Assembly: GCF_014084125.1 (NCBI RefSeq)
Contig: NZ_CP048405.1
Coordinates: 5,456,001 to 5,520,000, forward strand
Source of the DNA: Streptacidiphilus sp. PB12-B1b
GTDB taxonomy: Bacteria; Actinomycetota; Actinomycetes; Streptomycetales; Streptomycetaceae
Length of the DNA: 64,000 nt
Direction: 5' to 3'
The translations under genes were made by a program, and so were the position numbers. The notes under the pieces are model-generated. The model was not told the origin of the DNA. It saw only the letters and a list, made by a program, of their open reading frames with translations, and did no database searches. Of the stretch, positions 38,591-62,751 are shown in pieces (the stretch's first letter is position 1; every line of letters starts with the position of its first letter).

Positions 38591-38940
38591 ACCACATCGG
38601 TGAGACCGTCGGAGGTCGCTCCCGACCCGCCATTCGGCATGCGGTCAGCCGGGTCCTGGCGTTGACGCCTCCGGTCGGGGGCGGCCGCCGTACGGGAGGG
38701 TGAGCGCGGCGGCAACAACGTCGCGGTCCCGCTCCGACCCACGGGTCCGGAAAAGCTTTCGATATATCCGCGTCGAGTTGCAGCGCAATAGCCCGGCCTG
38801 AAAAGATCCGCGGAAAGCGCTGGCTCGGCCGCACCCGTCGTCCGGCTGGACAGGACGGGAGTCCGTGCTGACGTCCGCGGGTGCCCCGGCGGTATTCGCA
38901 CGTTACGGACACGAACCGAATGTGTGGGAGCAGGGCTACG
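38591..38940. other. Intergenic region, 350 nt
   Basis: No gene is supported here. An AT-rich patch, agctttcgatatatcc (near 38754-38769), could be part of a promoter for the next gene, but no matching -35 element is clear. No obvious terminator hairpin follows the P450. Confidence 0.4.
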
Positions 38941-39633
38941 ATGAGCCATGAATCAACACTGCGCCGGGTGGCCGCCGATCACATGATCGACCTGCCCGCC
39001 GGAGAGATCGCGCTGCGGGACGAGGGCACGATGACGGACTGGACGGTCGAGGTGGCCGCCTTCCGACTGGCCCCGTGTCCGGTCACCCGCGAGCTGTACG
39101 CCGCTGTGCTGGGCAAGGCGCCGGAGAGCTCCGCGGGGCCGCGGACGCCGATGACCGAGGTCTCATGGAAGGACGCCGTCCGGTTCTGCAATCTGTTATC
39201 GCAGGCTGAGGGGCTCGACCCCTGCTACTCGATGGGCGACAACCGCGACGCGGAGGACGTGGTCTGCGACTGGACAGTCGATGGCTACCGCCTTCCGTCC
39301 GAGGCGGAATGGGAGTTCGCCTGCCGGGCCGGGAGCTCGGACGTCCGCTACGGAGAGCTGGACAACATCGCGTGGTACCGCGGGAACTCCGGGGGCGAGG
39401 TGCACGACATCGCGACGCGGGAGCCGAACGCGTGGGGACTGCACGACATGATCGGCAATGTCTGGGAGTGGTGCTGGGACGTCTACGACCCCCGGGTCTA
39501 CGGCCCGTACCGCGTCTTCCGCGGCGGCGGTTTCTTCGACAAGCCCCGGGGGTGCCGGGCGTCGTGCCGCCGCAAGAGCCACCCGACCCTGGCCATCGAC
39601 GACCTCGGGTTCAGACTCGCCCGATCGCTGTGA
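38941..39633 (+). CDS. FGE-sulfatase (SUMF1-fold) domain protein, probably not a true formylglycine-generating enzyme
   Basis: The 230-residue protein matches the formylglycine-generating-enzyme fold: N-terminal CPVTRELYAAVLG, VSWKDAVRFCNLLS, RLPSEAEWEFACRAG, LHDMIGNVWEWCWDVYD and a C-terminal GFRLARSL. In genuine FGEs the RGGS-Y-L-C...C motif carries two copper-binding Cys. Here the segment reads RGGGFFDKPRGCRASC: the first Cys is Asp while later Cys are present. A different oxidative role is therefore likely, as with other members of this fold such as EgtB C-terminal domains or PvdO. ATG at 38941 is preceded by GGGAGCAGGG. Codon 86 is TTA (39196-39198). It lies between P450 and PPTase genes on the same strand. 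Confidence 0.85.
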   Translation: MSHESTLRRVAADHMIDLPAGEIALRDEGTMTDWTVEVAAFRLAPCPVTRELYAAVLGKAPESSAGPRTPMTEVSWKDAVRFCNLLSQAEGLDPCYSMGDNRDAEDVVCDWTVDGYRLPSEAEWEFACRAGSSDVRYGELDNIAWYRGNSGGEVHDIATREPNAWGLHDMIGNVWEWCWDVYDPRVYGPYRVFRGGGFFDKPRGCRASCRRKSHPTLAIDDLGFRLARSL

Positions 39634-39657: not shown

Positions 39658-40578
39658 GTGATCGATGAGATATTGCCCTCGCCCGTCGGCACGGGCAGCA
39701 CGTTCGCTGATTACGACGCGGCGCTGACCGCCCTGTACCCGCAGGAGGCCGCCGCCATCGCGAGTGCCCGGCCGAAGCGTCGACAGGAATACGCGAGCGT
39801 CCGCATGTGTGCGCGCCGCGCCATGAGCGAACTGGGCGTACCGCCGGCGCCTGTGCTGTCGGGCGTGCGCGGCGAACCGCTGTGGCCCGGCGGCATCGTC
39901 GGCAGCCTGACCCACTGTCCCGGGTTCCGGGCCGCCGCCGTCGGCCGCTCCTCCGCGTTCGTGGGGATCGGCATCGACGCCGAACCCAACCTCCCTCTGG
40001 CAGAGGATCTGCTGGAGTTCATCTCGCTTCCCCAGGAGCGAGCGCGAGTGCACGCGTTGACGCAGTCCTCTCCCGAGGTCTGCTGGGACCGGCTGCTGTT
40101 CAGCGCCAAAGAGGCGGTGTTCAAGGTCTGGTTCCCGCTCGCCAAGTGCGAACTCGACTTCACCGAGGCGGTCATCCGCATCGACCCCGGCTCCGGAACC
40201 TTCTCCGCGCGACTGCTCGTCCCGGGCCCCACCGCCGACGGGGAACGCATCGAGGGGTTCGACGGCCGCTGGCTCTCCCGCCGGGGCATACTGCTTGCCG
40301 CGATCGCCCTGCGGCGGACCACGGGACAGGGCGAGGCGGGCGCTCTGCCGAGGGCCGGCGGCCTCGGACGTCCCGTCGATCACCTCGCTGACGGAGACCC
40401 CGGGGTTCTTCTGACCCACCCGCACCGCAGGGCGCGCTCGACGGAGTCCATGATGCCGTCGAGGTCTCCCTGGCCGAACACTCCGGAATTCGCAACCACC
40501 GACAGCACGATCGCGCTCGCCTGCTCGTCCACTCGGACGTCGATGCCCGGGGTCGAGGGCGCCAGGTCCAACTGGTAG
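39658..40578 (+). CDS. 4'-phosphopantetheinyl transferase (EntD/Sfp type) with unusual C-terminal tail
   Basis: Transfers phosphopantetheine from CoA to carrier proteins, so it could activate the PKS ACPs and the stand-alone ACP at 59119-59367. Visible motifs are GSLTHCPGF, GIGIDAEPN (metal-binding Asp/Glu) and LLFSAKEAVFKVW. Start is GTG at 39658, with only a weak SD; it lies 24 nt after the FGE-like gene. The enzyme normally ends near the ALRR motif (about residue 220), but this frame runs 80 residues further, through DNA that codes for the convergent condensation-domain gene. Either the natural stop was lost, or one base is missing near 40320, which would move the end to 40391. Confidence 0.92.
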   Translation: MIDEILPSPVGTGSTFADYDAALTALYPQEAAAIASARPKRRQEYASVRMCARRAMSELGVPPAPVLSGVRGEPLWPGGIVGSLTHCPGFRAAAVGRSSAFVGIGIDAEPNLPLAEDLLEFISLPQERARVHALTQSSPEVCWDRLLFSAKEAVFKVWFPLAKCELDFTEAVIRIDPGSGTFSARLLVPGPTADGERIEGFDGRWLSRRGILLAAIALRRTTGQGEAGALPRAGGLGRPVDHLADGDPGVLLTHPHRRARSTESMMPSRSPWPNTPEFATTDSTIALACSSTRTSMPGVEGARSNW

Positions 40579-41741
40579 GCGCCGGGCAGCAGAACGAGCG
40601 GGAGGGTTCCCTCCACCCCCTCCTCGAAGTAGCTCGCGTAACTCAGTGCCAGGGATCTGACGAACCCTGTGCCGGGCCCTCGGGAGAGTTCCTGCTGCGA
40701 CGCCACCAGCGCCCGCCCGTCCACATGGCGTCGTGAGACGGCGTTGAGCAGTTCGGCCGCGGAGCTGTGCAGCAGGGAGCCGCCCTCGGCCGACGGTCGG
40801 TCGAGGACCACCGGCAGGTTGATGGCAAACATGCCAACGATGTCCTGCTCGGAGCGCAGCCGGGTGTCCACAGGGACGTGGACGGCGATACGGTTCTGCC
40901 GGGTCAGCCCGAACACCACCTCGGCAAAGATCGCCAGGACCGCCTGGAAAGTGGTGCGTCCACGAGAGTCACAGTCGTCCCTGAACCTGCTGAGGTCGTC
41001 GCCGGACAACTGGATCTGCCGGAGCGCGGCGCCGGCGGTCCCCTCCGCGGGTGGTCCCGCGGCGGACGCGGTCACGAAGTCGCACCCGTTCGGCATGGAG
41101 GCGATCCGTCTGCGCCAGTAGTCGGCGTTGCCCGCCACTGCCCGGCTGCCGAACCGTTGCCACTGGCCCTCGACCGCGTCCAGGAAAGGCGTGGAGGCGG
41201 TGGGGCCGGGGACGGCGGATGACGGTCGGGCGGCGAGAAGCTCCGCGTAGGCACTCCACAGGTCCCGCATGAGGATCGCGCACGAGCGCCCGTCCACAGC
41301 CAGGTGCGAGAAGCTGGCCAGGAAGGCGTGGCGGGTGCCGGAGAAGCGAATCAACCGGAACCGAAAGGGGCGGTCGTGATCGAGCCGCCACTCGCCGAGT
41401 GCGTCGTTCGCCAGCGTCCTGGTGACAAACCGGTGGAACTGGTCGGGCGAGTTGGATCGCACCGCCTGGAGCCGCACCAGCGGGCCCTCGGGAACACCCC
41501 GGTCCCGCTGGCCGTGCGCGCCGCCGTCCACGGGCGCCAACTCCAGGCGCAGCGCGTCGTGCCGGACCACCAACTGCCGTACCGCCCGCACGAACACCGT
41601 CGGGTCCAGGTCCCCCCGGATCTCGTAGGAGAAGTACACCGGGGTCCGCGAACCGGCCCGAGCGGCCAAACCGAGCAGATGGGCCTGCTGGGCGAACCCC
41701 AGGCGGACCGGATCCACCCGCCCGGCCCGGGTCGCCGTCAC
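40380..41741 (-). CDS. Free-standing condensation-domain protein, 453 aa
   Basis: Member of the NRPS condensation-domain (chloramphenicol-acetyltransferase-like) superfamily, standing alone without carrier or adenylation domains. The core motif reads SHLAVDG (about residues 142-148): the first His of HHxxxDG is Ser, but the catalytic second His and the Asp-Gly are kept. Such proteins form amide or ester bonds with a carrier-bound acyl donor. The GTG start at 41741 overlaps the stop of the upstream flavoprotein gene (GTGA), with GAGGGGG just before it, so the two are coupled. It belongs to the same transcription unit as the small precursor-like ORF at 42847-42975. Substrate is unknown: it may act on that peptide, on the polyketide, or link the two. 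Confidence 0.88.
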   Translation of the reverse strand: MTATRAGRVDPVRLGFAQQAHLLGLAARAGSRTPVYFSYEIRGDLDPTVFVRAVRQLVVRHDALRLELAPVDGGAHGQRDRGVPEGPLVRLQAVRSNSPDQFHRFVTRTLANDALGEWRLDHDRPFRFRLIRFSGTRHAFLASFSHLAVDGRSCAILMRDLWSAYAELLAARPSSAVPGPTASTPFLDAVEGQWQRFGSRAVAGNADYWRRRIASMPNGCDFVTASAAGPPAEGTAGAALRQIQLSGDDLSRFRDDCDSRGRTTFQAVLAIFAEVVFGLTRQNRIAVHVPVDTRLRSEQDIVGMFAINLPVVLDRPSAEGGSLLHSSAAELLNAVSRRHVDGRALVASQQELSRGPGTGFVRSLALSYASYFEEGVEGTLPLVLLPGAYQLDLAPSTPGIDVRVDEQASAIVLSVVANSGVFGQGDLDGIMDSVERALRCGWVRRTPGSPSAR

Positions 41742-42700
41742 CGCGCCCCCTCGGCACGTACCGCGGTGGCGGGCGCCGCCGGGGCAGCCTCGGTCAACAG
41801 CAGGTCCTGGTCGATGCCGAACCCGGCCTGGGCACCGGCCGCGACCGCGCCGGCCACGCTCCGGGCCACATGCTCGGCGCCTGCCATCTTCGCCATGTCG
41901 CCCGCGGCATAGACACCCGCGACGCTGGTGTGGCCGAACTGGTTCACCCGGACCCTGCCCTGCGCCGAGATCGCGCAGCCCAGGGCCTCGGGCAGCGCCG
42001 ATCCCTGGACCGACCACTGCGGCACGAACAGCCCACCGAGGAGCAGCGGGCAGGCACCGCGCAGCCGCACCTCGACGCCTCCGCCCGGCGCCGGCGCGAC
42101 CCGGGTCACCTCCGCCGGATCGACCCGGATCCGGAATCGGGAGAGCAGGTCCTCGGCCTCTTCCGACGCGTCCGTGCTTCCCTCCGTGAGCAGGACGACG
42201 TCATCGCTGAACCGGCGCAGATGGACGGCCAGGCGAACGGATCCGACAGCGCCGCCCAGCACGGCCAGGGGCAGGCCCCTCAACTCCCAGGCATGACAGT
42301 AGGGGCAGCTGAACACCCCTCGCCCCCAGACCGCCTCCACCCCGACGAGCGGGGGCAGGCGGTCGAGCAGGCCGGTGGCGAGCAGGAGCCGGCGGGATCG
42401 CACCGTCGACCTGTCGGCCAGCGTCACTTGGAACCCGTCGTCCAGCGGGGCGACGGCGCCCACCCCGCTCCCGCGCACCTCGATGCCGGGATATCCCGAG
42501 AGCTCCCCGAGGGCCAGCGATCGGAAGTCCTCGACCAGCACCCCGTCCCGGGTCGGGTAGCCGTGCATACGCCTCCCCGCCGGGGTCCGACCGGCCTCGA
42601 CCGGCGGGTCCGCCAGCAGGCAGCGCCGCCTCATCCGCCCCAGGCTCAAGGCCGCGCTCAGTCCGGCCGGGCCCGCTCCCACCACCACCGCATCCAGCAT
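41738..42700 (-). CDS. Thioredoxin-reductase-like FAD oxidoreductase with CPYC motif, 320 aa
   Basis: A two-dinucleotide-fold flavoprotein: GAGPAGLSAAL binds FAD at the N-terminus, CPYCHAWE (near residue 131) is the redox-active dithiol, a second Rossmann segment starts at LAVLGGAVGSVRLA, and GVYAAGDMAKM is the C-terminal FAD motif. The CPYC-H-x-W-E form is shared with thioredoxin-reductase-like dithiol oxidases that make disulfides in natural products (GliT, HlmI). I chose ATG at 42700 because GGGGAG lies about 10 nt upstream; a GTG at 42718 would swallow that site. It sits between the small C-X3-C peptide gene and the condensation-domain gene. Oxidising the two peptide cysteines is an attractive but inferred role. 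Confidence 0.88.
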   Translation of the reverse strand: MLDAVVVGAGPAGLSAALSLGRMRRRCLLADPPVEAGRTPAGRRMHGYPTRDGVLVEDFRSLALGELSGYPGIEVRGSGVGAVAPLDDGFQVTLADRSTVRSRRLLLATGLLDRLPPLVGVEAVWGRGVFSCPYCHAWELRGLPLAVLGGAVGSVRLAVHLRRFSDDVVLLTEGSTDASEEAEDLLSRFRIRVDPAEVTRVAPAPGGGVEVRLRGACPLLLGGLFVPQWSVQGSALPEALGCAISAQGRVRVNQFGHTSVAGVYAAGDMAKMAGAEHVARSVAGAVAAGAQAGFGIDQDLLLTEAAPAAPATAVRAEGAR

Positions 42701-42749
42701 CACGCCGAAACTCCCCACTGAACGACTCCGTCCCGCTCCACAGCTCGCA

Positions 42750-42785
42750 GGGGCGCACGCCCGGGCCGGCCCGGGCGTGCGCCCC
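42750..42785 (-). terminator. Perfect 36-nt palindrome after the small peptide gene (attenuator or terminator)
   Basis: The left arm GGGGCGCACGCCCGGGCC (42750-42767) is exactly complementary to the right arm (42768-42785), giving a stem of about 16 bp with a 4-nt loop. It lies 61 nt after the stop of the 42-residue ORF and 49 nt before the flavoprotein start. There is no U-tract. Partial read-through here would give far more precursor mRNA than enzyme mRNA, an arrangement common in RiPP operons. Confidence 0.75.
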
Positions 42786-42846
42786 CGATATCCGGGCGCC
42801 GGGTGAACGGCCGGGAAACCGCCGTGTCACCCGGCGCCCGGGTCCA

Positions 42847-42975
42847 TCACAGGCAGGACGTCAGGCACAGGACACCGGACGGCGCCGCCGAGCCTCCGAA
42901 GAGGTCGTCGAGCTCGTCGTCGGACAGCGCGCTGATGTCCGTCGAGTCAAATTCGTACTCGAATTCTCCAGTCAT
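42847..42975 (-). CDS. Candidate RiPP precursor peptide, 42 aa, leader ending FGG and core with C-X3-C
   Basis: The small ORF starts ATG at 42975, with the very strong SD AGGGGAGGG about 8 nt upstream, and ends TGA at 42847. It begins MTGEFEYEFDSTDISALSDD, continues ELDDLFGG, and ends SAAPSGVLCLTSCL. The acidic, helical leader with a double-Gly ending is the classic substrate of C39 peptidases, and a C39 exporter is encoded 286 nt away on the other strand. The predicted core of 14 residues has two Cys three residues apart and no other reactive side chains except Ser/Thr. Neighbouring enzymes are a CPYC flavoprotein and a condensation-domain protein. No lanthipeptide synthetase, YcaO, B1/B2 lasso or SPASM-type maturase is adjacent. 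I know of no described family that matches. Confidence 0.82.
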   Translation of the reverse strand: MTGEFEYEFDSTDISALSDDELDDLFGGSAAPSGVLCLTSCL

Positions 42976-43007
42976 AATATTTCCCTCCCCTCGTCAATTG
43001 AATTACT

Positions 43008-43036
43008 ACTCTAACTATCGTCGGTCAACCGGTCAA
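43008..43036 (-). promoter_or_regulatory. Promoter of the small peptide operon, with tandem TTGACC repeats
   Basis: On the minus strand TTGACC (43036-43031) is followed after exactly 17 nt by TAGAGT (43013-43008), a good sigma-70-type -35/-10 pair that places the transcript start about 25 nt before the ATG. A second TTGACC lies 8 nt downstream of the first, giving the direct repeat GTTGACCG GTTGACCG. The repeat overlapping the -35 could be an operator. Confidence 0.6.
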
Positions 43037-43260
43037 CGGCCCTCTTTTGAACACCTGGGACCGGAGTGCGCCACCATCCGCGACGCTTGACTGGTGGATT
43101 TCCGTGAGCTTGGCTGTCGGTGCCCCGATAATTCTGGGACAACGGCCCGGCGAAGAGAACCGGCACATACGTCCTCAATGTCTCCATCAGCAAAGGGGGG
43201 TTCGACGATGCCTGGGAAGACCCGCTCCACGAACGGGACGACATACGACAGGACGACGCG

Positions 43261-45630
43261 ATGAGCGATGACGAGGCCCCCCGCGGGGAGTACGGTCCCG
43301 CGGACCGCCGGTCGGGAGGGCCCGGCAGGTTCCGCCGGAAGGCTCTCTCCGCCCGCGGCGCGTCCCGCGAGTACGGGCCGGCCGTCGGGTCCGGCCGCCT
43401 GATCCGGCTGTCGCACCGCTCAGGCAGCGGGCGGACCGGGGCGACGGCACGACGGTGGCAGCGGCGCTCCCGGCAGCGGGTACCGGTCCGCCTGCAGGCC
43501 CAGACCAGCGACTGCGGCGCTGCCTCCCTGGCCATGGTGCTGGCCTTCCACGGCCTCGACGTGCCGATCAAGGACCTGCGCCGGGCCACGCAGACGGGGC
43601 GCGACGGCGTATCGGCCCGTCAACTCCTGGAAGCCGCACGCACCTACGGCTTCAACGCGCGCGGAATCCGGTCCACCCTCGACGGATTGCGGGATCTGCC
43701 GCCCGCCACCGTGCTCTTCTGGGACTTCACCCACTTCGTCGTGCTGGAGCAGGTGAAGGGTCGCTGGGTGCACATCGTCGATCCGAGGCTCGGGCGCCGC
43801 CGAGTGGCTCTGGAAGCAGCTGGGGAGGCCTTCACCGGGGTCGCCCTGCAGATCACCCCCGGCCTGCGCGCACCGGCCGACCGCAGCCCCCGGCCCGTGG
43901 TGTCCCAGCAGGGCGCCGTCAGCCCGTGGCGGTATCTCCGGCGCTTCTTTCCGTCCGGTCGCCGCTGGACGCCCTTCGTCCTCTGTTCGCTGCTGCTCCT
44001 CGGGTTCAACCTGGCCATGCCCCTGTCCACGCAGTACGTGGTGGACCACGTCGCCGCCGGGCGGCGGACAGCCGGGGCACCCGCGCTGTGCCTCGCGGTG
44101 ACCGCGCTGGCAGCGGCGTTCTTCGCGCTGCAGTTCATCCGTTCGCTCTCGGTCCTGGCCATCCAGGCGACCGTGGACGAGAGCGTGACCCTGGGAATCC
44201 TCAACCGCCTCTTCTCGCTGCCGCACGAGTACTTCGCCAGTCGCAGCCCGGGCGAGCTGGTGCAACGCGTCCGGACCAGTACGGCGATCCGGCAGGTGAT
44301 CTCGGTCTCCGCCCTCTCCAGCGTCTTCGACGGGATCCTGATCCTTTTCTACATGGCGCTGCTGCTGCTCGCGGATCCGACCCTGGCCCTGCTGGTGATC
44401 GTGCTGGCCCTGCTCCAGGTGGGCCTGCTGCTGGTCTCCTGGCGCAAGCACCAGTACGCCAGCGCCGACGCCGTCGAGGCCCGGACCAGGGCGGGGGCCG
44501 AACTCGCCGAGATCCTGGAGGGCATGACCACGCTCAAGGCGGCGGGGGTCGAGGGCCCGGCCGGCCGGCGCTGGAGCCACAGCCTCGCCGACGAACTGAA
44601 CACCCGGCTGCGCAGCCGTCGGCTGCTGACGGTCTCCTCGACCCTCAGTTCGGCCCTGCAGCTCGCGGCACCGCTGGTGGTACTGCTGGTCGGCTCGCTC
44701 CGGGTCGCCTCGGGCGCGCTCTCGCTCGGTGAGGTGCTCGGCTTCAGCGTCCTGGCCATGGGCCTGCTGGTACCGGTCGCCAACCTGGTCCAGATCGGGC
44801 TCGAAGTCTCAGGTCTGCGAGCCGAGTTGGCGAGGCTCGGCGACATCATCGAGGCGACCCCGGAGAAGAGGGCCGGGGACCGCGCCATCAGCGTGCACGG
44901 CGCACTGGAGGTGGACGACGTGTCCTTCGCCTACGGCGCCGGAGGGACCCGGGTGCTGTCCGAGGTGTCCTTCAGCGTTCCGCAAGGCACCTTCACGGCC
45001 CTGCTCGGCGGCTCCGGATCGGGCAAGTCGTCCTGCGCGCTGCTCCTCGCCGGGCTGCACTCCCCGACCGCCGGGAGCGTCCGCGTCGACGGGCACGACC
45101 TGGAGGACGTGGACACCTCCGGCTACCGCCAGTCCATCTCGTTCATCAACCAGGATTCCCGGCTCTTCTCCGGCTCCATCCAGGAGAACATCGCTTTCGG
45201 CGGTCCGGACGTCTCCGAGGCCGAGGTGATCGAGGCCGGCCGGTTGGCCTGCATCCACGATGATGTGACCCGTATGCCGATGGGGTACGCCACGCTGCTC
45301 GGCTCCGGCGGCGGCGGGGTCTCCGGCGGCCAGCGCCAGCGGATCATCCTGGCCCGGGCCCTGGTCAGGCGACCGAAGATCCTCATCATGGACGAAGCGA
45401 CCAGTGCGCTGGACCCGGTTCTCGAAGCCCGGATCTTCGAGCTCATCAGCGGTCTGGGGATGACGCTGATAGTGGTCGCCCACCGGCTGACCGCCGTTCG
45501 AAGCGCCGATCAGGTGGTCGTCCTGGACAGCGGCCGGATGGTCCAGTGCGGCGCGCCGCAAGAGCTGTCCAGGGCGGCCGGCCCCTACCGGACGCTGGTG
45601 GCCCCGGGCCCGGCCGACCTGGTCGGCTGA
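43261..45630 (+). CDS. C39-peptidase-containing ABC exporter (PCAT), 789 aa
   Basis: Exports a peptide across the membrane while cutting its leader after a double Gly. An unusual, Arg/Gly-rich N-terminal extension of about 75 residues comes first. The C39 peptidase follows with QTSDCGAASLAMVLAFHG (nucleophile Cys near residue 85), catalytic His in FTHFVVLEQ (near 158) and Asp in HIVDPR. A six-helix membrane domain spans roughly residues 225-500. The ATPase has Walker A GGSGSGKSS, signature VSGGQRQR, Walker B ILIMDEATSALD and the H-loop VAHRLT. All catalytic residues are present. The gene diverges from the 42-residue GG-leader ORF, its obvious substrate. ATG at 43261 follows AGGA; a start further in, closer to the peptidase, is possible. 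Confidence 0.95.
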   Translation: MSDDEAPRGEYGPADRRSGGPGRFRRKALSARGASREYGPAVGSGRLIRLSHRSGSGRTGATARRWQRRSRQRVPVRLQAQTSDCGAASLAMVLAFHGLDVPIKDLRRATQTGRDGVSARQLLEAARTYGFNARGIRSTLDGLRDLPPATVLFWDFTHFVVLEQVKGRWVHIVDPRLGRRRVALEAAGEAFTGVALQITPGLRAPADRSPRPVVSQQGAVSPWRYLRRFFPSGRRWTPFVLCSLLLLGFNLAMPLSTQYVVDHVAAGRRTAGAPALCLAVTALAAAFFALQFIRSLSVLAIQATVDESVTLGILNRLFSLPHEYFASRSPGELVQRVRTSTAIRQVISVSALSSVFDGILILFYMALLLLADPTLALLVIVLALLQVGLLLVSWRKHQYASADAVEARTRAGAELAEILEGMTTLKAAGVEGPAGRRWSHSLADELNTRLRSRRLLTVSSTLSSALQLAAPLVVLLVGSLRVASGALSLGEVLGFSVLAMGLLVPVANLVQIGLEVSGLRAELARLGDIIEATPEKRAGDRAISVHGALEVDDVSFAYGAGGTRVLSEVSFSVPQGTFTALLGGSGSGKSSCALLLAGLHSPTAGSVRVDGHDLEDVDTSGYRQSISFINQDSRLFSGSIQENIAFGGPDVSEAEVIEAGRLACIHDDVTRMPMGYATLLGSGGGGVSGGQRQRIILARALVRRPKILIMDEATSALDPVLEARIFELISGLGMTLIVVAHRLTAVRSADQVVVLDSGRMVQCGAPQELSRAAGPYRTLVAPGPADLVG

Positions 45631-45811: not shown

Positions 45812-46903
45812 TTGGATGTCGATTCAGTCATGCCTGAAAAAGACGCGCCCAGGTCCGTCTACGAACTCCACGACAGCTGGGACAACGGGTTTTTCTCCGA
45901 TACCAGAACCGAGCCGGCCGAACGTGACCCCAGAAATTTATCCACGCCCTGGTCGAACGTTCCGGCGCCGTCCTTCGAACCGACTCGCGGGCGCGTCACG
46001 CGCGTACCGCTCGACCGACTGCTGGACGCCGAGTCGCCGAGGCTCGGGGGGCTCGACGAGAGGCACCTCTCCACCCTGCTCGACGTCGAGGACGACCTGC
46101 CCCCGATCATCGTGCACGGCCCGACCATGCGGGTAATCGACGGTATGCACCGTCTGCACGCGGCCCGGCTCAGGAACCGCGAGACCATCGACGTGGTCTA
46201 CTTCGACGGCTCCGAGAAGGAGTCGTTCGTCCTGGCCGTCGAGGCGAACGTCCGGCACGGCCTGCCGCTGACTCTCGCGGAGCGGAAGGAGTCCGCCAAG
46301 AGGATCCTCCGCAGCTATCCGGAGTGGTCGAACCAGGCGATCGCAACCAAGACCGGGCTGTCCTCCAAGACGGTGGGCATGCTCCGCCGGGACGACGGAG
46401 CAGCCGAGACCCAGCCCACGGTCAGGATCGGGAGGGACGGGCGGGTCCGCCCGCTGAGCGTCGTCGAGGGCCGACTGAGGGCCCGCGAGGTACTGGCCCA
46501 GAACCCGGACGCCTCACTGCGGGAGATAGCCAGGGAGTCCGGCATCTCGGTCGGAACCGCGCGGGACGTGCGGGAGAGGCTGAGCAAGGGGGAGAGCCCG
46601 ATTCCGGGGAGCCGGGCGGCCGCGGCGGAGGCCGAGCCCCGACCGGCGGAGCCCGGCCCCTCGTCAGAGCTGGTCGACTTCGCCATCGTCCTGGACTCGC
46701 TCCGCAAGGATCCCGCCCTTCGGTACAGCGATGAGGGACGTGCGCTCATCCGCTGGCTGGAGACCCGCACGGTGCGCCGGGAGGAGATCAACCTGGTCGC
46801 GCAGGTGCCGGCGCACCAGGCGACCAGACTCGCCAACATGGCCCGGGCCTGCGCCGCGCACTGGGAGGCCATCGCGGTCGCCCTGGAACGCCGGGGCGGC
46901 TGA
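45812..46903 (+). CDS. StrR-type ParB/HTH transcriptional regulator, 363 aa
   Basis: Resembles the StrR family of pathway-specific activators (StrR, Bbr, NovG). The N-terminal ParB-like domain contains VTRVPLDRLL, the segment DDLPPIIVHGPTMRVIDGMH and RLHAARLRN. It is followed by two helix-turn-helix stretches, SNQAIATKTGLSSKTVGMLR and ASLREIARESGISVGTAR. Start is TTG at 45812, with GGGGGG about 9 nt upstream; the later ATG at 45830 lacks an SD. Codon 43 is TTA (45938-45940), so synthesis probably depends on the bldA tRNA, linking the cluster to development. It lies 182 nt after the C39 exporter and is the best candidate for the local activator. Its exact targets are unknown. Confidence 0.85.
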   Translation: MDVDSVMPEKDAPRSVYELHDSWDNGFFSDTRTEPAERDPRNLSTPWSNVPAPSFEPTRGRVTRVPLDRLLDAESPRLGGLDERHLSTLLDVEDDLPPIIVHGPTMRVIDGMHRLHAARLRNRETIDVVYFDGSEKESFVLAVEANVRHGLPLTLAERKESAKRILRSYPEWSNQAIATKTGLSSKTVGMLRRDDGAAETQPTVRIGRDGRVRPLSVVEGRLRAREVLAQNPDASLREIARESGISVGTARDVRERLSKGESPIPGSRAAAAEAEPRPAEPGPSSELVDFAIVLDSLRKDPALRYSDEGRALIRWLETRTVRREEINLVAQVPAHQATRLANMARACAAHWEAIAVALERRGG

Positions 46904-51593: not shown

Positions 51594-53057
51594 TCAGCCC
51601 ACCTCGGCGGCCAGCTCCCGCAGCCGCGCCCGGTCGACCTTCCCATTGCGGTTCTCAGGCAGCTCATCCACCACCACGACCTGCCCCGGCGACTTGTGCG
51701 CGCCGAGTTCGCGGGCCAGGGCGCGCAGGATGTCCGCGCGCGGGCGGTCACTGACCACGAAGACGACCGGGTCCGGGTGCCCGGACCGGCGAACCACGCA
51801 GACCGCGGTCGTCCCGTCGATCCGCATGGCCGCGCTCTCGATCTCCGCCGCACCGACGCGTACGGAGCCCACCTTGTAGGTGTCGTCGGCACGGTGGGAG
51901 AAGCAGAACCGCCCGGCCTCGTCGATCCAGCCGAAGTCGCCGCTGTACAGGGCGGTCCCCTCCGGCGTGGTCCGGAACCGCCGGCGCGTCTCCTCCGGCC
52001 TGCCCCAGTACCCCACCATCACATGCGGCCCGTGGACGACCAGTTCCCCGGTCTCGCCGGGTCGGCACGGCCTGCCGTCCTCGTCCCGAACCTCCAGGGC
52101 GGTACCGGGCAGCGGGAGCCCGACCGCGTCCGGCGCGTCCAGGTCCTCGTCCGGCTCACTGATCGAGACCCGCTTGCACTCAGTCAGTCCGAACATGCGG
52201 ACGACGCCCGCTCCGGGGAAGCCCCGGCGCAGGCTCACGCAGTCCTCCGGTGTGAGCGCGTCGCCGGTGTTGGTGAACAGCCGCACGGGCGGACGCCGGG
52301 CGTTCGGCCGACCCGCGAGCAGGCAGAGCCTCCGCGCCAGGCCCGGGACGACCGGGACGACCGTGGCTCCGGCCCGGTGGGCCCGCGCCAGCAGCAAAGG
52401 ACCGACTCCGCTGGGCGCGAGGACCAGGTCACTGCCCCCGTGCAGCGCCAGGAACAGCTGGTACAGCCCGTAGTCGAAACTCATCGGCAGGCAGCTGAAG
52501 ACGACGTCGCCCGGACGGTAGCCGAGCCGGTCGGCGATCGCCCGGACCGCGAACTCCGCCTGCCGGTGCGGGCACACCACACCGCGTGGCGCGGCCGTTG
52601 AACCCGAGGTGTACATGATGAGCGCGATGTCGTCCGGCTCGACGGCAGGCGCGGGCTCGGCCGTGGCCGCCGGGGGCCCGAGAGCGAAGGCCGGATCCGC
52701 CGGCAGGAACCGTACCGGCGGATCCCCGGCCGGTGCTCCGTCCGGCCTCGAAGCGTCGACGACCAGCAGCGCGGGACGGCAGTCACGCATGATGTCGTCC
52801 AGTTGGCCGAGTGGGGTGCCGGGGTGCAGCGGCACCGGAACCAGGCCGGCCCGCAGCGCGCCGAGCAGCGCGGCGGCCAGTGTGACGCAGTTGGGCAGCA
52901 GGAAGGCCACCCGGTCACCGCGGACCGCGCCCCGGTCCGTCAGCAGACCGGCCCAGGCCTGGGTCTCCACGCCGAACTCCCTTACCGTGCAGCTGCGGTG
53001 GTCGTCCGAGAGGGTCGCTGCCGGGTTCGCGGCGTCGAGCAGGTCATGCAGTGCCAT
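51594..53057 (-). CDS. ANL-superfamily acyl/amino-acid adenylating ligase, 487 aa
   Basis: Activates a carboxylic acid as an adenylate and passes it to a thiol. Motifs: phosphate loop MYTSGSTAAPRGV, the aromatic segment FGLTEC, YSGDFGWID, hinge-proximal FSHRADDTYKVGS, and the catalytic C-terminal Lys in ENRNGKVDR. No carrier domain is attached, so the stand-alone ACP at 59119-59367 in the same operon is the likely acceptor. It overlaps the upstream glycosyltransferase gene by 14 nt and is the last gene of the operon, ending at the hairpin at 51527-51567. Substrate cannot be read from the sequence by eye. Confidence 0.92.
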   Translation of the reverse strand: MALHDLLDAANPAATLSDDHRSCTVREFGVETQAWAGLLTDRGAVRGDRVAFLLPNCVTLAAALLGALRAGLVPVPLHPGTPLGQLDDIMRDCRPALLVVDASRPDGAPAGDPPVRFLPADPAFALGPPAATAEPAPAVEPDDIALIMYTSGSTAAPRGVVCPHRQAEFAVRAIADRLGYRPGDVVFSCLPMSFDYGLYQLFLALHGGSDLVLAPSGVGPLLLARAHRAGATVVPVVPGLARRLCLLAGRPNARRPPVRLFTNTGDALTPEDCVSLRRGFPGAGVVRMFGLTECKRVSISEPDEDLDAPDAVGLPLPGTALEVRDEDGRPCRPGETGELVVHGPHVMVGYWGRPEETRRRFRTTPEGTALYSGDFGWIDEAGRFCFSHRADDTYKVGSVRVGAAEIESAAMRIDGTTAVCVVRRSGHPDPVVFVVSDRPRADILRALARELGAHKSPGQVVVVDELPENRNGKVDRARLRELAAEVG

Positions 53058-54081
53058 GGGGGCTCACCTGTCCGGATCCCGCGCCGCCGGCGAGGGCGCG
53101 TCGGTAGTCGGCTATCAAGCGGTGGTAGCCCTGCCCGAAGTACTCATGCAGACGCGTGACCTCGGGCCGGGGCCAGCGCTCGGCCAATAGGGCCAGTCCG
53201 CTGGTATCCGCGAAGGACCGGAGATTGCGCCGATGCTCCAGCAGGACGCTGGCCGCCGCCGGTTCGAAGTGGATGCCGACGCCCGCTTCGAGCAGCTTCA
53301 GGCCGAGGTCCTGATCCGAGTTGCCGCTCGGCACCGTCTCCTCGACCCCGCCGATGTCCAGCAGCGTGGACCGGGCGACCGAGTGGTTGCCCATGCGGAC
53401 GCACAGCCAGCGCAGGTCCGCGCGATCGCTCCGCAACTCGTTGTACATGTCCTGGAAGCCGGGCGTCAGCGCCGCGGTCCGGGACAACTCGGCGTATCGG
53501 TACCGGACGTCGTCGGGGGTGATCGTCCAATCAGTGAGGCCCAACTGCTCAGCGGTCGCCCGGATGTCAGCGAAGCCGAGCAGGCTGCCGAAGGCCCGCA
53601 CGGCGAGGTCGCCGCGCGGGTGCAGGGCACCGGTGATGATGTCGCGGAAGAGGATGCCGTAGGCGTACTGCCGCTCCGTCCCGCACAGATAGGCGGCCGA
53701 CGCCCGGCGGGCGTGGCCGCCGAGATGGGCCTCGACCGCGTCCGGTGCCAGCAGTGAGTCGTCGGTGGTGAGCAGGACGTATCGGCCGCGGGCGGCCTCG
53801 ACTCCGACGTTGTAGGCGGCGGACTGGCCGCGGGAGGGCCCGTCACCGCGCAGGACGCGCGGCCGGATCCGCAGCCGCCTGCGGGCGAACTCGTCCACCA
53901 GGTCAGCGAGCCGGACGTCGCTGGAGTCGTCGACGACAACGACCTCGAAGGCGGACGCCGCCGCCGTCTGGGCGTCCAGGGCCACCAGGCACAACCGCAG
54001 CAGCGCCCACCTCATCTCGGTACCGACTGCTCCGGAGAGCCGGCACGGAAGGACCACCGACAGCTCGGGCCGCTCAGACAT
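53044..54081 (-). CDS. Family 2 glycosyltransferase, 345 aa
   Basis: Inverting GT-A-fold transferase using an NDP-sugar. The N-terminus has ELSVVLPC, then FEVVVVDDSSD (first Asp motif), GPSRGQSAAYNVGVEAARG and YVLLTTDDSLL (DxD-type metal site). ATG at 54081 overlaps the stop of the upstream WbqC-like gene by 8 nt. No membrane segment is obvious. Probably transfers a sugar made with help from the dehydratase at 55931-56932. Acceptor unknown. Confidence 0.9.
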   Translation of the reverse strand: MSERPELSVVLPCRLSGAVGTEMRWALLRLCLVALDAQTAAASAFEVVVVDDSSDVRLADLVDEFARRRLRIRPRVLRGDGPSRGQSAAYNVGVEAARGRYVLLTTDDSLLAPDAVEAHLGGHARRASAAYLCGTERQYAYGILFRDIITGALHPRGDLAVRAFGSLLGFADIRATAEQLGLTDWTITPDDVRYRYAELSRTAALTPGFQDMYNELRSDRADLRWLCVRMGNHSVARSTLLDIGGVEETVPSGNSDQDLGLKLLEAGVGIHFEPAAASVLLEHRRNLRSFADTSGLALLAERWPRPEVTRLHEYFGQGYHRLIADYRRALAGGAGSGQVSPHGTA

Positions 54082-54946
54082 ACGCGCTCCTGACCGAGGG
54101 CACGCGCACGGTGACTCCGTCCGCCGTGGCGGGTGCCCCGGGGACCGTCTCCAGGACGGCCGGGGCCCCGCTCGCGGCGAGGGCTTCCAGGAGCGCCTTC
54201 CTGGTGGCGTTGCCGGCCAGCAGCGCCGCGGTGCTTTCGGCGCCGACGTTGAACAGCAGGTCCACCACGGAGAGGTCGGGGATGAACCCGCCGTGCCGCT
54301 GCTGGTACACGGGCCCCCGGTAGCGCTGGTAGAAGACCGAGATCCCGCGGTCCAGGAACTCCTGCTCGCGTAGGTAGTCATGCCCGTTGACACCGGACAC
54401 GTACACCGTCGCGGACGTGCGCCTGCAGTGGTCGAGCACGATCCGGGACTTCCGGCCCTCCCAGCCCAGTTCGCTGGCCCGCACGAAGTCCACCTCGATC
54501 CGCAGGGCTGCGGCCAGCCGTCGCAGCAGGTGGGCGTTCAACTCCACGAGGCTGGTCCAGCTGTGCCCCAGGAGGGCGTCCTCGAAGATCGGCGCATAGC
54601 TCCGCCAGTGGTCCGCCTGCGAGTAGGCCTGGCTCAGGCTCGTCCAGTGCGCGCGCTGCCAGTCGGTCCTCGTGGCGCACACGCCGGGCGCTATGGCGAT
54701 GTCGCACAGTCGGCGGGACGCGGAACCGCGCGAGGAGAGCGGGACGGTGAGCCAGAAGGAACCGTTCGGGCCCTTGATGCGGTTCCGGTTCTGCCAGCCT
54801 CGGCGGGAGTAGTCCACCGTGTCCATCAACACGATGACGTCGGCCAGTGCCAGCTTGTGGAACAGCCCCGCCCAGGGCAGGTAGGTGGGCTGGTGGCAGG
54901 TGACGATGCGCGGCACCGGGGCGTGGAAGGCAGGTCGGCCGCTCAT
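54074..54946 (-). CDS. WbqC-like family protein, 290 aa
   Basis: Matches the WbqC-like family found in polysaccharide and specialised-metabolite clusters, whose chemistry is poorly defined. Family hallmarks are the N-terminal IVTCHQPTYLPWAGLFHKLA, then VDYSRRGWQNRNRIKGPNG, the central RIVLDHCRR, and a C-terminal VVDLLFNVG. The ATG at 54946 overlaps the upstream stop (ATGA). Its position between an oxygenase and a glycosyltransferase fits a role in modifying a sugar or acyl-sugar. The reaction is unknown. Confidence 0.85.
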   Translation of the reverse strand: MSGRPAFHAPVPRIVTCHQPTYLPWAGLFHKLALADVIVLMDTVDYSRRGWQNRNRIKGPNGSFWLTVPLSSRGSASRRLCDIAIAPGVCATRTDWQRAHWTSLSQAYSQADHWRSYAPIFEDALLGHSWTSLVELNAHLLRRLAAALRIEVDFVRASELGWEGRKSRIVLDHCRRTSATVYVSGVNGHDYLREQEFLDRGISVFYQRYRGPVYQQRHGGFIPDLSVVDLLFNVGAESTAALLAGNATRKALLEALAASGAPAVLETVPGAPATADGVTVRVPSVRSAYV

Positions 54947-55901
54947 CCGATCGTGTGGCCCGCGTCGGCCAGCAGGCTGCCTCGGGCGTTCTCGGCGATG
55001 CCGTGGGCCGCCGTCGGATCGAAGAACAGCGTCTCGTCGAAGAGCCAGGGCCGGTCGCCGCCCTCGGCCAGGTGCCGCTCCCGCAGCAGCCGGTGGGAGC
55101 CCCCGTAGCCGCCGGGCCATCGGATCCCTCCCTGGCAGTAGGAGCCATCCAGGAAGTACCGGGGCTCGGCCTCCCCTCCCGGCCTGGGGATGCGGGCGTG
55201 GAACATGGCCGAGTTCATCAGCACGGCCCCGCCCGGCGGGAGGCGGTCGATCACCACCGCGTCCGGCAGTCGCTGCCAACCCAGGTGCCATAGCGCCCGC
55301 TTGCTCGCCACCGACCGCTGCGTCCCCGGTGCCAGCAACAGGTCGCCGACCGTGCCGTTGAGCCCGTTCAGGTAGATCAGCACGTGCACCATCAGGTGCG
55401 ACCGGTTCGTCTGCGGGTACTGGTCGTAGTCGTGGTGCCAGGGGAGCCCCGGGGTGCCGGCGTCGTGGCGGGCCGCGTTGAGGTGGTGGAACACGTAGCG
55501 GGAGCGGTCCGGTTCGTCGGGGAGGTCGAGTACCGGCGGCACGCCGCCGGAGAGCGTCCACTCGGCCCGCGGACGCCAGGCCGCCATGAGCTGGTCGAGC
55601 ACACCGGTGATCCGCGGATGCCAGACGAGCCTGCCCAGGTTCGGCAGCTCGTGCGCCCGCCGCCGCTCGGAGGGCAGTTGGTGCAGCAGCGGCGACCGCA
55701 CCAGGCGGCTCAACCGCTCCCTCGCCTGCGGGGAGAAGCCTTCCCCAGATTCTTGGCCCGCCCTGACTCCGCGGTGAGTTCGTCGATCTCCTGCTTCAGC
55801 GCCTCGGTCTCGTGGGGGTCGAGGATCTGCCTGACGAGATAGCCCCGCTCGTCGAAGGCCTGGAGGTCCCCTTCGGTGAGTTCTGCGTCCTGGTACTGCA
55901 T
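54943..55901 (-). CDS. PhyH-family Fe(II)/2-oxoglutarate dioxygenase (one frameshift near the start)
   Basis: Non-haem iron oxygenase of the phytanoyl-CoA dioxygenase family. The iron ligands HxD appear in LPWHHDYDQY and the distal His in AMFHARIPRPG. Because Asp is kept it should hydroxylate rather than halogenate. The N-terminal part, MQYQDAELTEGDLQAFDERG, begins at ATG 55901 but shifts out of frame at the C4 run at 55743-55746. One more base there gives NLGEGFSPQARERLSRL and a normal 319-residue protein. Otherwise only a truncated form starting at TTG 55713 would be made. It sits in a coupled operon with the WbqC-like and dehydratase genes. The family includes enzymes acting on carrier-protein-bound acyl groups, which suits the nearby ACP. 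Confidence 0.85.
55743..55746 (-). other. Frameshift site 3: C4 homopolymer, one base short
   Basis: The N-terminal and main frames of the PhyH gene meet here. Adding one base restores KNLGEGFSPQARER across the junction. It has the same signature as the sites at 6153-6157 and 47868-47873. Confidence 0.7.
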
Positions 55902-55930
55902 GGAATCCTCCCCTGCGGGCCGGTGCCCGG

Positions 55931-56932
55931 TCAGTCGCGTGTCAGTCGGCGGAGTTCGTCCACCTGGATCCAGTCCGTATTGGTGTCGCTGCGGTATTCG
56001 AACCCCGTCGGGACCGGTCGGCCGACCTGGTCCGCATAGACGTCCGACGGCTTGAGCCCCCAGGACTCCTGAAAGGCCGACTGGATGGCGAAGAAGTCCT
56101 CGAATTCCAGGGTCTGCGCGGACTCGTCGGCGGGGATGAGCACCTCGTGGATCTTCTCGCCCGGCCGGACGCCGATGACCTGCTGCTCACACCCGGGACC
56201 GACGGCCGACGCCAGGTCCACCATCCGCATGCTGGGCTGCTTCGGGATGAAGACCTCGCCGCAGTTCATCATGGAAAGGACCCTGAGGACGAACTCGACT
56301 CCGTTCTCGATGGTGATCCAGAAGCGCGTCATCCGGGTGTCGGTGATCGGGAGCTTTCCCGACCGTCTGCGCTCCTTGAAGAACGGGATGACGCTTCCCC
56401 GGGATCCGACAACATTCCCGTAGCGCACCACGGAGAACCGCGTCCCGGTCTGGCCGGAGAGGCCGTTGGCGGCGATGAAGAGCTTGTCCGAGCAGAGCTT
56501 CGTGGCGCCGTAGAGGTTGATCGGGTTCGTCGCCTTGTCCGTGGACAGGGCGACCACCCGCTCGACTCCGGCGTCGATGGCGGCGTTGATGACGTTCTCA
56601 GCGCCGAGGACATTGGTCCTGATGCATTCGATGGGATTGAACTCGGCGGTCGGCACCTGCTTCATGGCCGCCGTGTGGATCACCACGTCGACGTCGGCGA
56701 AGACCCGTTGCAGCCGGCTCGGGTCCCGCACGTCGCCGACCACGTAGCGGACCGTCGGGCCGTTCACCCGTTCGGCCATCTGGAACTGCTTGAACTCGTC
56801 GCGGGAGAGCACGGTGAGGCGTCGCGGGCAGAACTCCGCCAGGACACGCCGCACGAAGACTTCGCCGAAGGAGCCGGTACCGCCCGTCACCAGAACGGAC
56901 TTGCCATGGAGGTCGTACGTGGGACTGATCAC
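55931..56932 (-). CDS. UDP-N-acetylglucosamine 4,6-dehydratase-like SDR (PseB/FlaA1 type), 333 aa
   Basis: Extended short-chain dehydrogenase that converts a UDP-HexNAc to its 4-keto-6-deoxy form in PseB-like enzymes. Seen: TGGTGSFGEVFVRR (NAD(P) loop), VVIHTAAMKQVP, STDKATNPINLYGATKLCSD with the catalytic Tyr and Lys, VRYGNVVGSRGSVIPFF and TRFWITI. The MKQVP and KATNPINLYGATK strings are typical of the PseB/CapD/FlaA1 group. It supplies the first step toward an unusual amino sugar. The PIG-L deacetylase and two glycosyltransferases nearby fit this idea. No matching aminotransferase is seen in the window. Confidence 0.92.
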   Translation of the reverse strand: MISPTYDLHGKSVLVTGGTGSFGEVFVRRVLAEFCPRRLTVLSRDEFKQFQMAERVNGPTVRYVVGDVRDPSRLQRVFADVDVVIHTAAMKQVPTAEFNPIECIRTNVLGAENVINAAIDAGVERVVALSTDKATNPINLYGATKLCSDKLFIAANGLSGQTGTRFSVVRYGNVVGSRGSVIPFFKERRRSGKLPITDTRMTRFWITIENGVEFVLRVLSMMNCGEVFIPKQPSMRMVDLASAVGPGCEQQVIGVRPGEKIHEVLIPADESAQTLEFEDFFAIQSAFQESWGLKPSDVYADQVGRPVPTGFEYRSDTNTDWIQVDELRRLTRD

Positions 56933-56992
56933 GGATGCTCGCTTCCCTGAGAGGACTCATATCGGCTGGGGCCGGTCGTCGGCCCGCGGGTC

Positions 56993-58108
56993 CTAGACCG
57001 GGGACTGGGACGTGGCGCCAGGGCGCTCGTCGGAGAAGAGGCGCTCGGCGATGTCGGACGCGGCCCACCTCAGCGGTGTCGCCAGATCGATGCCGCCGTA
57101 CTCGTGCAGGAAGTCCCGGCCGATCGCGCCGTCGGCCGCGATCCGGTCGAGCACCTCGCCCGGGACCGTCGAGGGGAACAGCCGCTCGGCGTTGGCGAGC
57201 GCGAAGTACACGTTGCGCAGCGCGCCGGCCTCGGCCGCCACCGCGGTGAGCAGCGCCCAGTCCAGGTCGGGATTGGCCCGCACGACGGCCACGATGTCCA
57301 CGTACTGCAGCAACCGCTGGTGCTTCCCCTTTTCGATGTAACGCAGCGTCGTGGACTCCTTGTGCAGGTGCGCGGCCACGTCGAGGAGGAAGTGCTCAGG
57401 ACGGAAGACCGGCAGCGTCCCGCCGTCCGACTCGAAGGGCGACGCCTGGTCCAGGAGTCGCCGCGCGGGGAGTCGGACGCCGCTGGCGGGGAGGAAGAGG
57501 TCCCAGCAGACGTCGACGGCGATCGAGGGCAGGCAGGGATCGCCGGAGGGGCGGTGATGCGCGGGGAGGTTGTTCACATGGACGTTCCAGAAGACAGACT
57601 GACGCCTGGTCAGCGGAATGATCCGGTTCTGGGTGTCGATCCGGCCCGGGAGGTACCCCTCCGCCTTCAGCAGTGCGGCCACCTCCTGCGCCGCGGCACG
57701 GTCCACGAAGAGGTCGATGTCGTTCATCGGCCGCAGCCCGGGATCCCGGTAGACCGCCGGGGCGAGGTACGCGCCCTTGCGGACCGCGACCTGGACACCC
57801 TGCCCGAGGAGGAGGCCGACAAGTCGCACCGCCTCGGCGACCAGCAGCCGGTTGCGCCGCTCGTTCAGGGTGTGGGCGCCGAGCAGGGCATCGAGCACGT
57901 ACTCCCGGCGGCTCTCGTACTCGATCCCACGGACGCCCGCGAGGGACCGCCCCACCAGCGCGGCGACCCGGTGCCGGAAGACCGTGTCGAGCACGAACCC
58001 CCAGTCGAACCCGTCGAGGTCGGTGTCTGCGGCGAGGTCCCCGCCGAACGGCGTCGAGGCCCGGAGGATGAATTCCTTCTCACGCTGCTTCTCCGGCCGC
58101 GCGCTCAT
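56993..58108 (-). CDS. Nucleotidyltransferase-fold protein, 371 aa
   Basis: Resembles the family of uncharacterised nucleotidyltransferases often found with carrier-protein and polysaccharide genes. The diagnostic segment is RDPGLRPMNDIDLFVDRAAA (DxD metal site), preceded by VRKGAYLA and followed by VDVCWDLFLP and LLDVAAHLHKE. ATG at 58108 overlaps the stop of the upstream oxygenase (ATGA). It could transfer a nucleotide to a sugar, peptide or protein. Nothing in the sequence fixes the substrate. Confidence 0.82.
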   Translation of the reverse strand: MSARPEKQREKEFILRASTPFGGDLAADTDLDGFDWGFVLDTVFRHRVAALVGRSLAGVRGIEYESRREYVLDALLGAHTLNERRNRLLVAEAVRLVGLLLGQGVQVAVRKGAYLAPAVYRDPGLRPMNDIDLFVDRAAAQEVAALLKAEGYLPGRIDTQNRIIPLTRRQSVFWNVHVNNLPAHHRPSGDPCLPSIAVDVCWDLFLPASGVRLPARRLLDQASPFESDGGTLPVFRPEHFLLDVAAHLHKESTTLRYIEKGKHQRLLQYVDIVAVVRANPDLDWALLTAVAAEAGALRNVYFALANAERLFPSTVPGEVLDRIAADGAIGRDFLHEYGGIDLATPLRWAASDIAERLFSDERPGATSQSPV

Positions 58109-59115: not shown

Positions 59116-59118
59116 CGG

Positions 59119-59367
59119 TCACGCCCCGGACTGGATACGGGAGACGAGCAGCGAGACGCTGCCGACGGTGCTGAAGTTCTCTGCCAGCATCTCGCCGTCG
59201 GGGATCATGATTCCGAACCGCTGCTCCAGGTCGATGATGAGCTCGACCAGGCGCAGGGAGTCGATTCCGAGGTCCACCAGTTTGTCGTCCGCACCCAGGG
59301 ATCCGGCCGGGGGGACGTCAGCGGCATGGATGCGCAGGACGCCCAGGATGTCTTCGTCAATGGTCAT
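59119..59367 (-). CDS. Stand-alone acyl carrier protein, 82 aa
   Basis: A discrete carrier protein with the phosphopantetheine site in LVDLGIDSLRLVELIIDLEQ; length and the acidic helix are typical. The ATG at 59367 overlaps the end of the radical SAM gene by 11 nt. It can be primed by the PPTase at 39658 and loaded by the ANL ligase at 51594, giving a tethered substrate for the two PhyH oxygenases or the radical SAM enzyme. Confidence 0.93.
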   Translation of the reverse strand: MTIDEDILGVLRIHAADVPPAGSLGADDKLVDLGIDSLRLVELIIDLEQRFGIMIPDGEMLAENFSTVGSVSLLVSRIQSGA

Positions 59368-62585: not shown

Positions 62586-62751
62586 ATGAGTCCCACCTCC
62601 GACGCACCAAGATGCCACGAACGGGGAGCGTGCGAGATTCGGCGTCAACCAGTTCGTGTATGACCAGGGAAAATTCCCGGGTTGCACACCCGGAACCGCG
62701 CGCACCCGGCAGCGGTTGCCTGCCGCCTCCCTCGCGGGCAATACTGCGCGA
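62586..62751. promoter_or_regulatory. Divergent intergenic region, 166 nt
   Basis: It lies between the oxygenase operon (minus strand) and the glycosyltransferase (plus strand), so it must hold two promoters. On the minus strand GGTTGACGCC could be a -35, but no convincing -10 follows. The only firm element is the SD before 62585. Confidence 0.45.

Follow-up and report, generated by a model that had tools for sequence, protein, structure and literature searches.

A candidate ribosomal peptide system in Streptacidiphilus and other actinomycetes that combines double-glycine precursors, free-standing condensation proteins and C39 exporters

Organization of the peptide locus

The stretch of DNA analysed here (the window, 64,000 nucleotides) covers positions 5456001-5520000 of the 7.67-Mb single-contig genome of Streptacidiphilus sp. 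PB12-B1b and contains a short gene for a peptide with a double-glycine (GG) leader, a free-standing condensation (C) protein and a C39-type exporter. The minus strand carries, in order, the peptide gene, a flavoprotein gene with a CPYC motif and the C gene; the exporter gene is divergent and is followed by a gene for a ParB-like regulator. In window coordinates, the locus comprises:

43008-43036, minus strand: sigma-70-like promoter for the peptide operon, TTGACC-17-TAGAGT, from a consensus scan
42847-42975, minus strand: precursor peptide gene, with a 28-residue acidic leader ending in GG and a 14-residue core, from translation, a leave-out leader profile and a profile search
42750-42785 and 42792-42806/42827-42841, minus strand: two perfect inverted repeats just 3' of the peptide stop
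41738-42718, minus strand: thioredoxin-reductase-like CPYC flavoprotein related to DepH and GliT (Pyr_redox_2), likely start at an ATG near 42700
40380-41741, minus strand: free-standing C protein, probably 453 residues, motif SHLAVDG with the second His kept
43261-45630, plus strand (divergent): C39-peptidase ATP-binding cassette (ABC) exporter with Peptidase_C39, ABC_membrane and ABC_tran domains
45812-46903, plus strand: ParB-like protein bearing a helix-turn-helix, likely the cluster regulator, with relatives in loci L041 and L057

The 42-codon open reading frame (ORF) at 42847-42975 translates to the leader MTGEFEYEFDSTDISALSDDELDDLFGG followed by the core SAAPSGVLCLTSCL, with cleavage presumably after the GG, and the stretch GGGGAGGG is located 5' of its ATG. 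A leader profile built without the rows of the window and of a second locus in the same genome scored this peptide at 37.3 bits, against 2.4 bits for the runner-up among 1025 window ORF segments and 4.8 bits for the best of 20 Markov shuffles. These scores mark the ORF as a real gene, beyond chance, as a preliminary description of this DNA had claimed from the letters alone. The same description had placed a promoter upstream, and the consensus scan returned one sigma-70-like site there, matching the consensus at 9 of 12 positions (shuffle mean 0.0). Both hairpins (42750-42785 and 42792-42841) are strong (z -5.5), lie between the peptide and flavoprotein genes and may be attenuator or processing elements.

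The exporter had been credited with a full set of catalytic residues, and the alignment bears this out: besides the Pfam domains listed above, the DCG, HF and DP positions of the C39 peptidase are unchanged across 13 aligned peptidase domains. Its top NCBIfam match, NHLM_micro_ABC1, falls under the cut-off (560.6 of 853.3 bits).

The C protein belongs to the Pfam family Condensation (PF00668) by sequence (1.3e-26) and by predicted fold. A GTG at 41741 overlaps the flavoprotein stop as GTGA and is the likely start, which would make the protein shorter than the full ORF. The predicted model displays a complete condensation fold (mean predicted local distance difference test score, pLDDT, 84.7; predicted template-modelling score, pTM, 0.85), and its Foldseek matches include Txo2 (template-modelling score 0.77), the free-standing SgcC5 (4znm) and, at rank 8, the teicoplanin X-domain (4tx3).

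Recurrence of the gene set across actinomycetes

Relatives of the window C protein at E 1e-25 or better were found in 18 of 394 family-level genomes, and a search with a peptide profile (A4) returned matches in those very 18 genomes. Because the A4 rows came from 13 of the 18, recovery of these is not independent; the lack of a match in the other 376 genomes is. The listed genome handles suggest that both 394-genome samples were one draw. A public genome collection was also scanned with the C39 domains, and of the 354 relatives the best 80 were kept. The 22 nearest actinomycete loci among these 80 (L050-L070 and L092) carried a C protein in 20 cases and the peptide in 21, and at the other 58 no C match was found at 1e-6 and the leader profile never exceeded 12.0 bits.

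With duplicates merged and L056 left out, 32 C-bearing loci were counted, L070 separately although its C protein is 96% identical to that of L043. They come from Streptomyces, Kitasatospora, Saccharothrix, Nonomuraea, Streptosporangium, Verrucosispora, Kutzneria and Actinoplanes, among others. Gene counts were made on stretches no longer than 20 kb for each record (26 kb in the case of the window), some of them ended by contig edges, and several queries were taken from the window itself. On this basis the peptide was present in all 32 loci (called at at least 15 bits, with 13 of the 32 not represented in the profile). C39 exporters were found in 31 loci, matches to ligases forming adenosine monophosphate (AMP) in 29, stand-alone carriers in 24, JmjC in 12, P450-like matches in 7 and ParB-like proteins in 3; the flavoprotein occurs only at the locus of the window. 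The peptide gene usually lies directly beside the C or C39 gene; in L057 it lies about 7 kb from the exporter. Thus the proposed system of GG-leader peptide, C39 exporter and lone C protein recurs in the family, and relatives that keep the enzymes but lack the small ORF, named in advance as the observation that would speak against it, were not encountered among the C-bearing loci. The short GG-leader precursor and the C39 exporter are two of the features expected of a ribosomally synthesized and post-translationally modified peptide (RiPP) with C39-type processing.

Two loci depart from this pattern. No C39 exporter was found within the 20 kb fetched for L035, and L056 (Actinocrispum) has a close C39 exporter, yet no C match and no peptide. 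A search of plasmids with the exporter at 1e-100 gave no match, and 392 further Streptomyces genomes gave five hits, all at loci already in the set. Of 394 class-level genomes five matched; the scores of three were just 21.5-24.3 bits, and these matches were taken as chance.

A second locus lies 110 kb upstream in the same genome. Its peptide (contig 5388437-5388532; leader MENTQVDIAALSDEELDDIVGG, core HGVHVDKACI) directly precedes a C39 exporter, C protein, carrier domain and AMP ligase.

Beside this second locus (L009:5310-10194) are an S66 LD-carboxypeptidase and a class III aminotransferase that is extended at its N-terminus by a long stretch; L048 and L049 likewise have both types close to the C gene. 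Members of the S66 family can provide self-immunity, as MccF does. In L033/L053 and L051, whose C39 proteins are close relatives of that of the window, an inositol-1-phosphate synthase-like protein (recognized by eye) and further genes are held in common, hinting at a sugar or cyclitol part.

Core peptides and leader matches

The family comprises 34 distinct cores of 5-15 residues. Exactly one Cys is present in 24 of them, more than one in 3 and none in 7; Ser and Thr are both missing from 7, and the window core has both Ser/Thr and Cys. A Cys or Lys stands second or third from the C-terminus in 24 of the 34. Since most cores have a single Cys and a Cys or Lys at one of these positions, a single reactive side chain near the end of the core is suggested for most members. 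The C-X3-C spacing occurs in the window core only.

Tandem precursors were also observed: L060 (Kutzneria sp. CA-103260) encodes three with the same core (9266-9748), and L039 encodes four with differing cores (4145-4809), two distinct ones having neither Cys nor Lys.

The peptide family is without a name in the two general libraries scanned, NCBIfam and Pfam. Among 26 peptides, NCBIfam gave weak matches to bacteriocin and lantibiotic leaders (best E 0.00074) and Pfam a best E of 0.00031, to DUF5841 (2 of 26); NF040664 weakly matched 8 (best E 0.0013) and PF04604 matched 6 (best E 0.0033). Ten peptides scanned singly against Pfam gave matches below the cut-off only.

Candidate ligase and carrier

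In the window, the candidate partners of the C protein are encoded away from the peptide operon, 9 kb (ligase) and 16 kb (carrier) from the peptide gene, in an operon with sugar-type genes:

51594-53057, minus strand: VinN-like adenylating ligase, candidate partner, with relatives adjacent to C and C39 genes at five further loci
59119-59367, minus strand: stand-alone carrier protein, candidate partner, in the operon of the ligase or adjoining it

We infer from these relatives that both belong to the peptide system. The ligase is 41-45% identical to those of L051, L033/L053, L054, L055 and L057, and its best solved match is 3wvn (1.3e-98). According to a review (PMC11253843), 3wvn is VinN, in which D230 and K330/R331 are key residues for the beta-amino acid. 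At those positions all six VinN-like ligases retain Asp (in FDYG) and Lys-Arg (in ECKR), which points to a beta-amino acid resembling aspartate as the likely transferred group in this subclade. VinN itself feeds a polyketide (vicenistatin), whereas five of the six ligases here adjoin C, C39 or peptide genes.

Comparison with known systems

In the SgcC1/SgcC2/SgcC5 trio, a beta-amino acid is joined to an acceptor that is not carrier-held. As in that C-1027 pathway, the condensation enzyme here is free-standing (PMC10212144, PMC12304814) and has the same fold (4znm). SgcC5 is described as making amide as well as ester bonds (PMC10212144). Genes for a discrete ligase, a carrier and a C protein are present in most loci; in the window, ligase and carrier are in another operon. 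In contrast to the trio, the acceptor proposed here is made ribosomally and carries a GG leader, and the second His of the motif has been lost from most C proteins.

Lipidated RiPPs would be similar in bearing an acyl group, here only proposed, on a ribosomal peptide. Those described so far use GNAT enzymes according to PMC13060382, which places the selidamide acyl group on ornithine or Lys side chains. Microvionin, goadvionins and lipoavitides are acylated N-terminally; selidamides and nostolysamides are acylated on a side chain. Their GNATs act on lanthipeptides, whereas the candidate transferase here is a condensation protein with no lanthipeptide synthetase nearby, GNATs not having been searched for at the loci. 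Double-glycine bacteriocins and class II lanthipeptides share the leader type, the GG site and the C39 exporter with the present family, and differ from it in that the cores here are very short, the family matches weak and C, carrier and ligase genes stand alongside. No report of a peptide, C39 exporter and lone C protein in combination was found in the open-licence literature searched.

Proposed pathway

The conserved leader, gene company, folds and motifs are shown by the analysis, and every chemical step and the attachment site in what follows are our inference from them. We tentatively favour a reading in which a ribosomal peptide is matured by discrete ligase, carrier and C proteins of the non-ribosomal peptide synthetase (NRPS) type and is then exported. 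The ligase would adenylate a small acid and load it onto the stand-alone carrier, from which the C protein would transfer the group to a nucleophilic side chain of the leader-bearing precursor, a Cys or Lys which in the majority of the family stands second or third from the C-terminus. The C39 exporter would then cut after the GG and export the short conjugate. In the window, the VinN-like ligase suggests a group resembling aspartate or 3-methylaspartate, a beta-amino acid, and the CPYC flavoprotein would be a local extra, probably oxidising the two Cys or protecting them until export. For the C protein, the preliminary description had suggested acylation of the peptide or its joining to a carrier-bound acyl chain; the ligase and carrier genes of most loci make action on a carrier-bound chain more likely.

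The reactive residue may also bear on the C proteins. All five loci with a Lys-and-no-Cys core (L037, L042, L052, L054 and L055) pair it with a C protein that keeps the second His of HHxxxDG, and 4 of the remaining 26 C proteins keep it (window, L034, L035 and L039). An amine acceptor that needs a base and a thiol acceptor that does not would fit this pattern chemically.

Several observations weigh against this pathway. The Lys/His association is only a hint, as its two-by-two counts (22/4/0/5) contain just three independent tree pairs and are not significant. The HHxxxDG motif is degenerate, with the second His kept in 9 of 31 C proteins and lost in 22, so catalysis may be lost or different. 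Within the fetched stretches, 8 of the 32 loci have no carrier and 3 no AMP ligase, and many ligase matches are weak (80-124 bits), as expected from any adenylating enzyme. Cys and Lys are both absent from two distinct cores of L039. The ligase and carrier of the window could instead serve the sugar-like operon or the polyketide synthase, and in the window peptide a Cys-Cys disulfide and Cys acylation would be mutually exclusive unless the acyl group sits on another residue.

The broader proposal is a RiPP class spanning several actinomycete families, in which discrete NRPS-type ligase, carrier and condensation proteins attach acyl or beta-aminoacyl groups to ribosomal cores of 5-15 residues, on a Cys or Lys close to the C-terminus, the catalytic His being dispensable for a thiol nucleophile. 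We regard it as possible and advance it with more reserve than the pathway. The "new class" of the preliminary description is likewise no more than possible.

Alternative explanations

The main rival, in our view unlikely, holds that the C proteins are non-catalytic docking platforms which hold the leader or carrier and recruit P450 or JmjC oxygenases, much as the X-domain of glycopeptide synthetases recruits tailoring enzymes. The frequent loss of the second His, the X-domain structure among the closest folds and the presence of JmjC or P450-like genes in part of the loci are consistent with docking; the nine C proteins that keep the His, including that of the window, argue against it, and a mere platform leaves unexplained why ligase and carrier accompany the C gene in most loci.

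It is improbable that the peptide is a carrier or scaffold on whose Cys or Lys a small molecule is built by the carrier and C enzymes, with the peptide as a handle, although peptide aminoacyl-tRNA ligase (PEARL) systems do build on a peptide end. Very short cores with one conserved nucleophile near the end, surrounded by ligases and oxygenases, would suit such a role. The intact peptidase motifs of the 13 aligned domains suggest instead that the core itself is destined for export, and no releasing enzyme was identified at the loci.

We consider it quite improbable that the peptide is exported without modification, as a signal or bacteriocin, and that a separate small molecule is the product of the C, carrier and ligase proteins, with only the exporter or regulator in common. 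The loci without a ligase or carrier in the fetched stretch could be read in this way, but the occurrence of peptide and C protein in the same 18 of 394 genomes and the usual position of the peptide gene directly by the C or C39 gene speak against it.

The preliminary description had taken the C-X3-C disulfide, made by the CPYC flavoprotein, as the defining step, which we now regard as very unlikely. The flavoprotein (motif SCPYCHAWEL) is thioredoxin-reductase-like, and its best solved matches are 4fk1, 4ntd and DepH (4nte, 4jn9), with GliT (4ntc) also matched; DepH, GliT and HlmI form disulfides in secondary metabolites (PMC5721475). Because the protein is DepH/GliT-like and encoded in the operon, its gene overlapping the C gene, and because the core has two Cys, a disulfide is plausible in the window peptide. 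The substrates given for the known enzymes are non-ribosomal metabolites, whereas the likely substrate here would be a ribosomal peptide, at this locus only. As shared family chemistry the disulfide was rejected: the flavoprotein is absent from the other 31 loci, and an intrapeptide disulfide is impossible for most members, as their cores have one Cys or none.

Class II lanthipeptide precursors with a synthetase acting in trans, suggested by the lantibiotic-like leader, the weak NF040664 and PF04604 matches and some LANC_like (PF05147) match in all 18 genomes, were rejected as scarcely credible, since no listed LANC_like match lies within 80 kb on the same contig in these genomes, several of which are in many contigs, and some cores lack Ser/Thr or Cys. 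In the present genome the nearest such match is 141 kb from the second locus and farther from that of the window. The earlier claim that no classical RiPP maturase is present thus holds for LANC_like only, YcaO, radical-SAM and other maturases not having been searched across the loci.

Neighbouring genes

The C gene (40380-41741) overlaps tail to tail, by about 200 bases, with a further ORF:

39658-40578, plus strand: 4'-phosphopantetheinyl transferase, from a domain scan

This enzyme would prime carrier proteins and may be linked to the peptide system. An FGE-sulfatase-domain protein (38881-39633) adjoins it and a P450.

Judged from the ORF sequences, about 78 kb of large polyketide synthase (PKS)-type ORFs lie upstream of the peptide locus (window 1-35690 and contig 5413646-5456000). 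One of them has 7706 residues (window 12570-35690), and stand-alone acyltransferase-like ORFs lie near contig 5420861-5427277.

On the other side, the minus-strand run at 51594-62768 encodes a 2-oxoglutarate oxygenase, a PIG-L deacetylase, a CxxxCxxC protein, the carrier protein, two PhyH oxygenases, a Polysacc_synt_2 epimerase, a glycosyltransferase, the VinN-like ligase and, by eye, a WbqC-like protein. The CxxxCxxC motif protein (59370-60853) appears radical-SAM-like by eye and is in an operon separate from that of the peptide.

Implications

If the proposed pathway is correct, ribosomal and non-ribosomal peptide logic would be united in one small pathway, in which the acceptor peptide is encoded by a gene and easy to change and the ligase, carrier and condensation proteins form a set that can be exchanged. 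Condensation enzymes would gain a genetically encoded substrate, and the family would offer a natural test of the role of the HHxxxDG His with thiol as against amine acceptors. Genome miners would also be directed to precursor peptides that are unnamed in two general family libraries.

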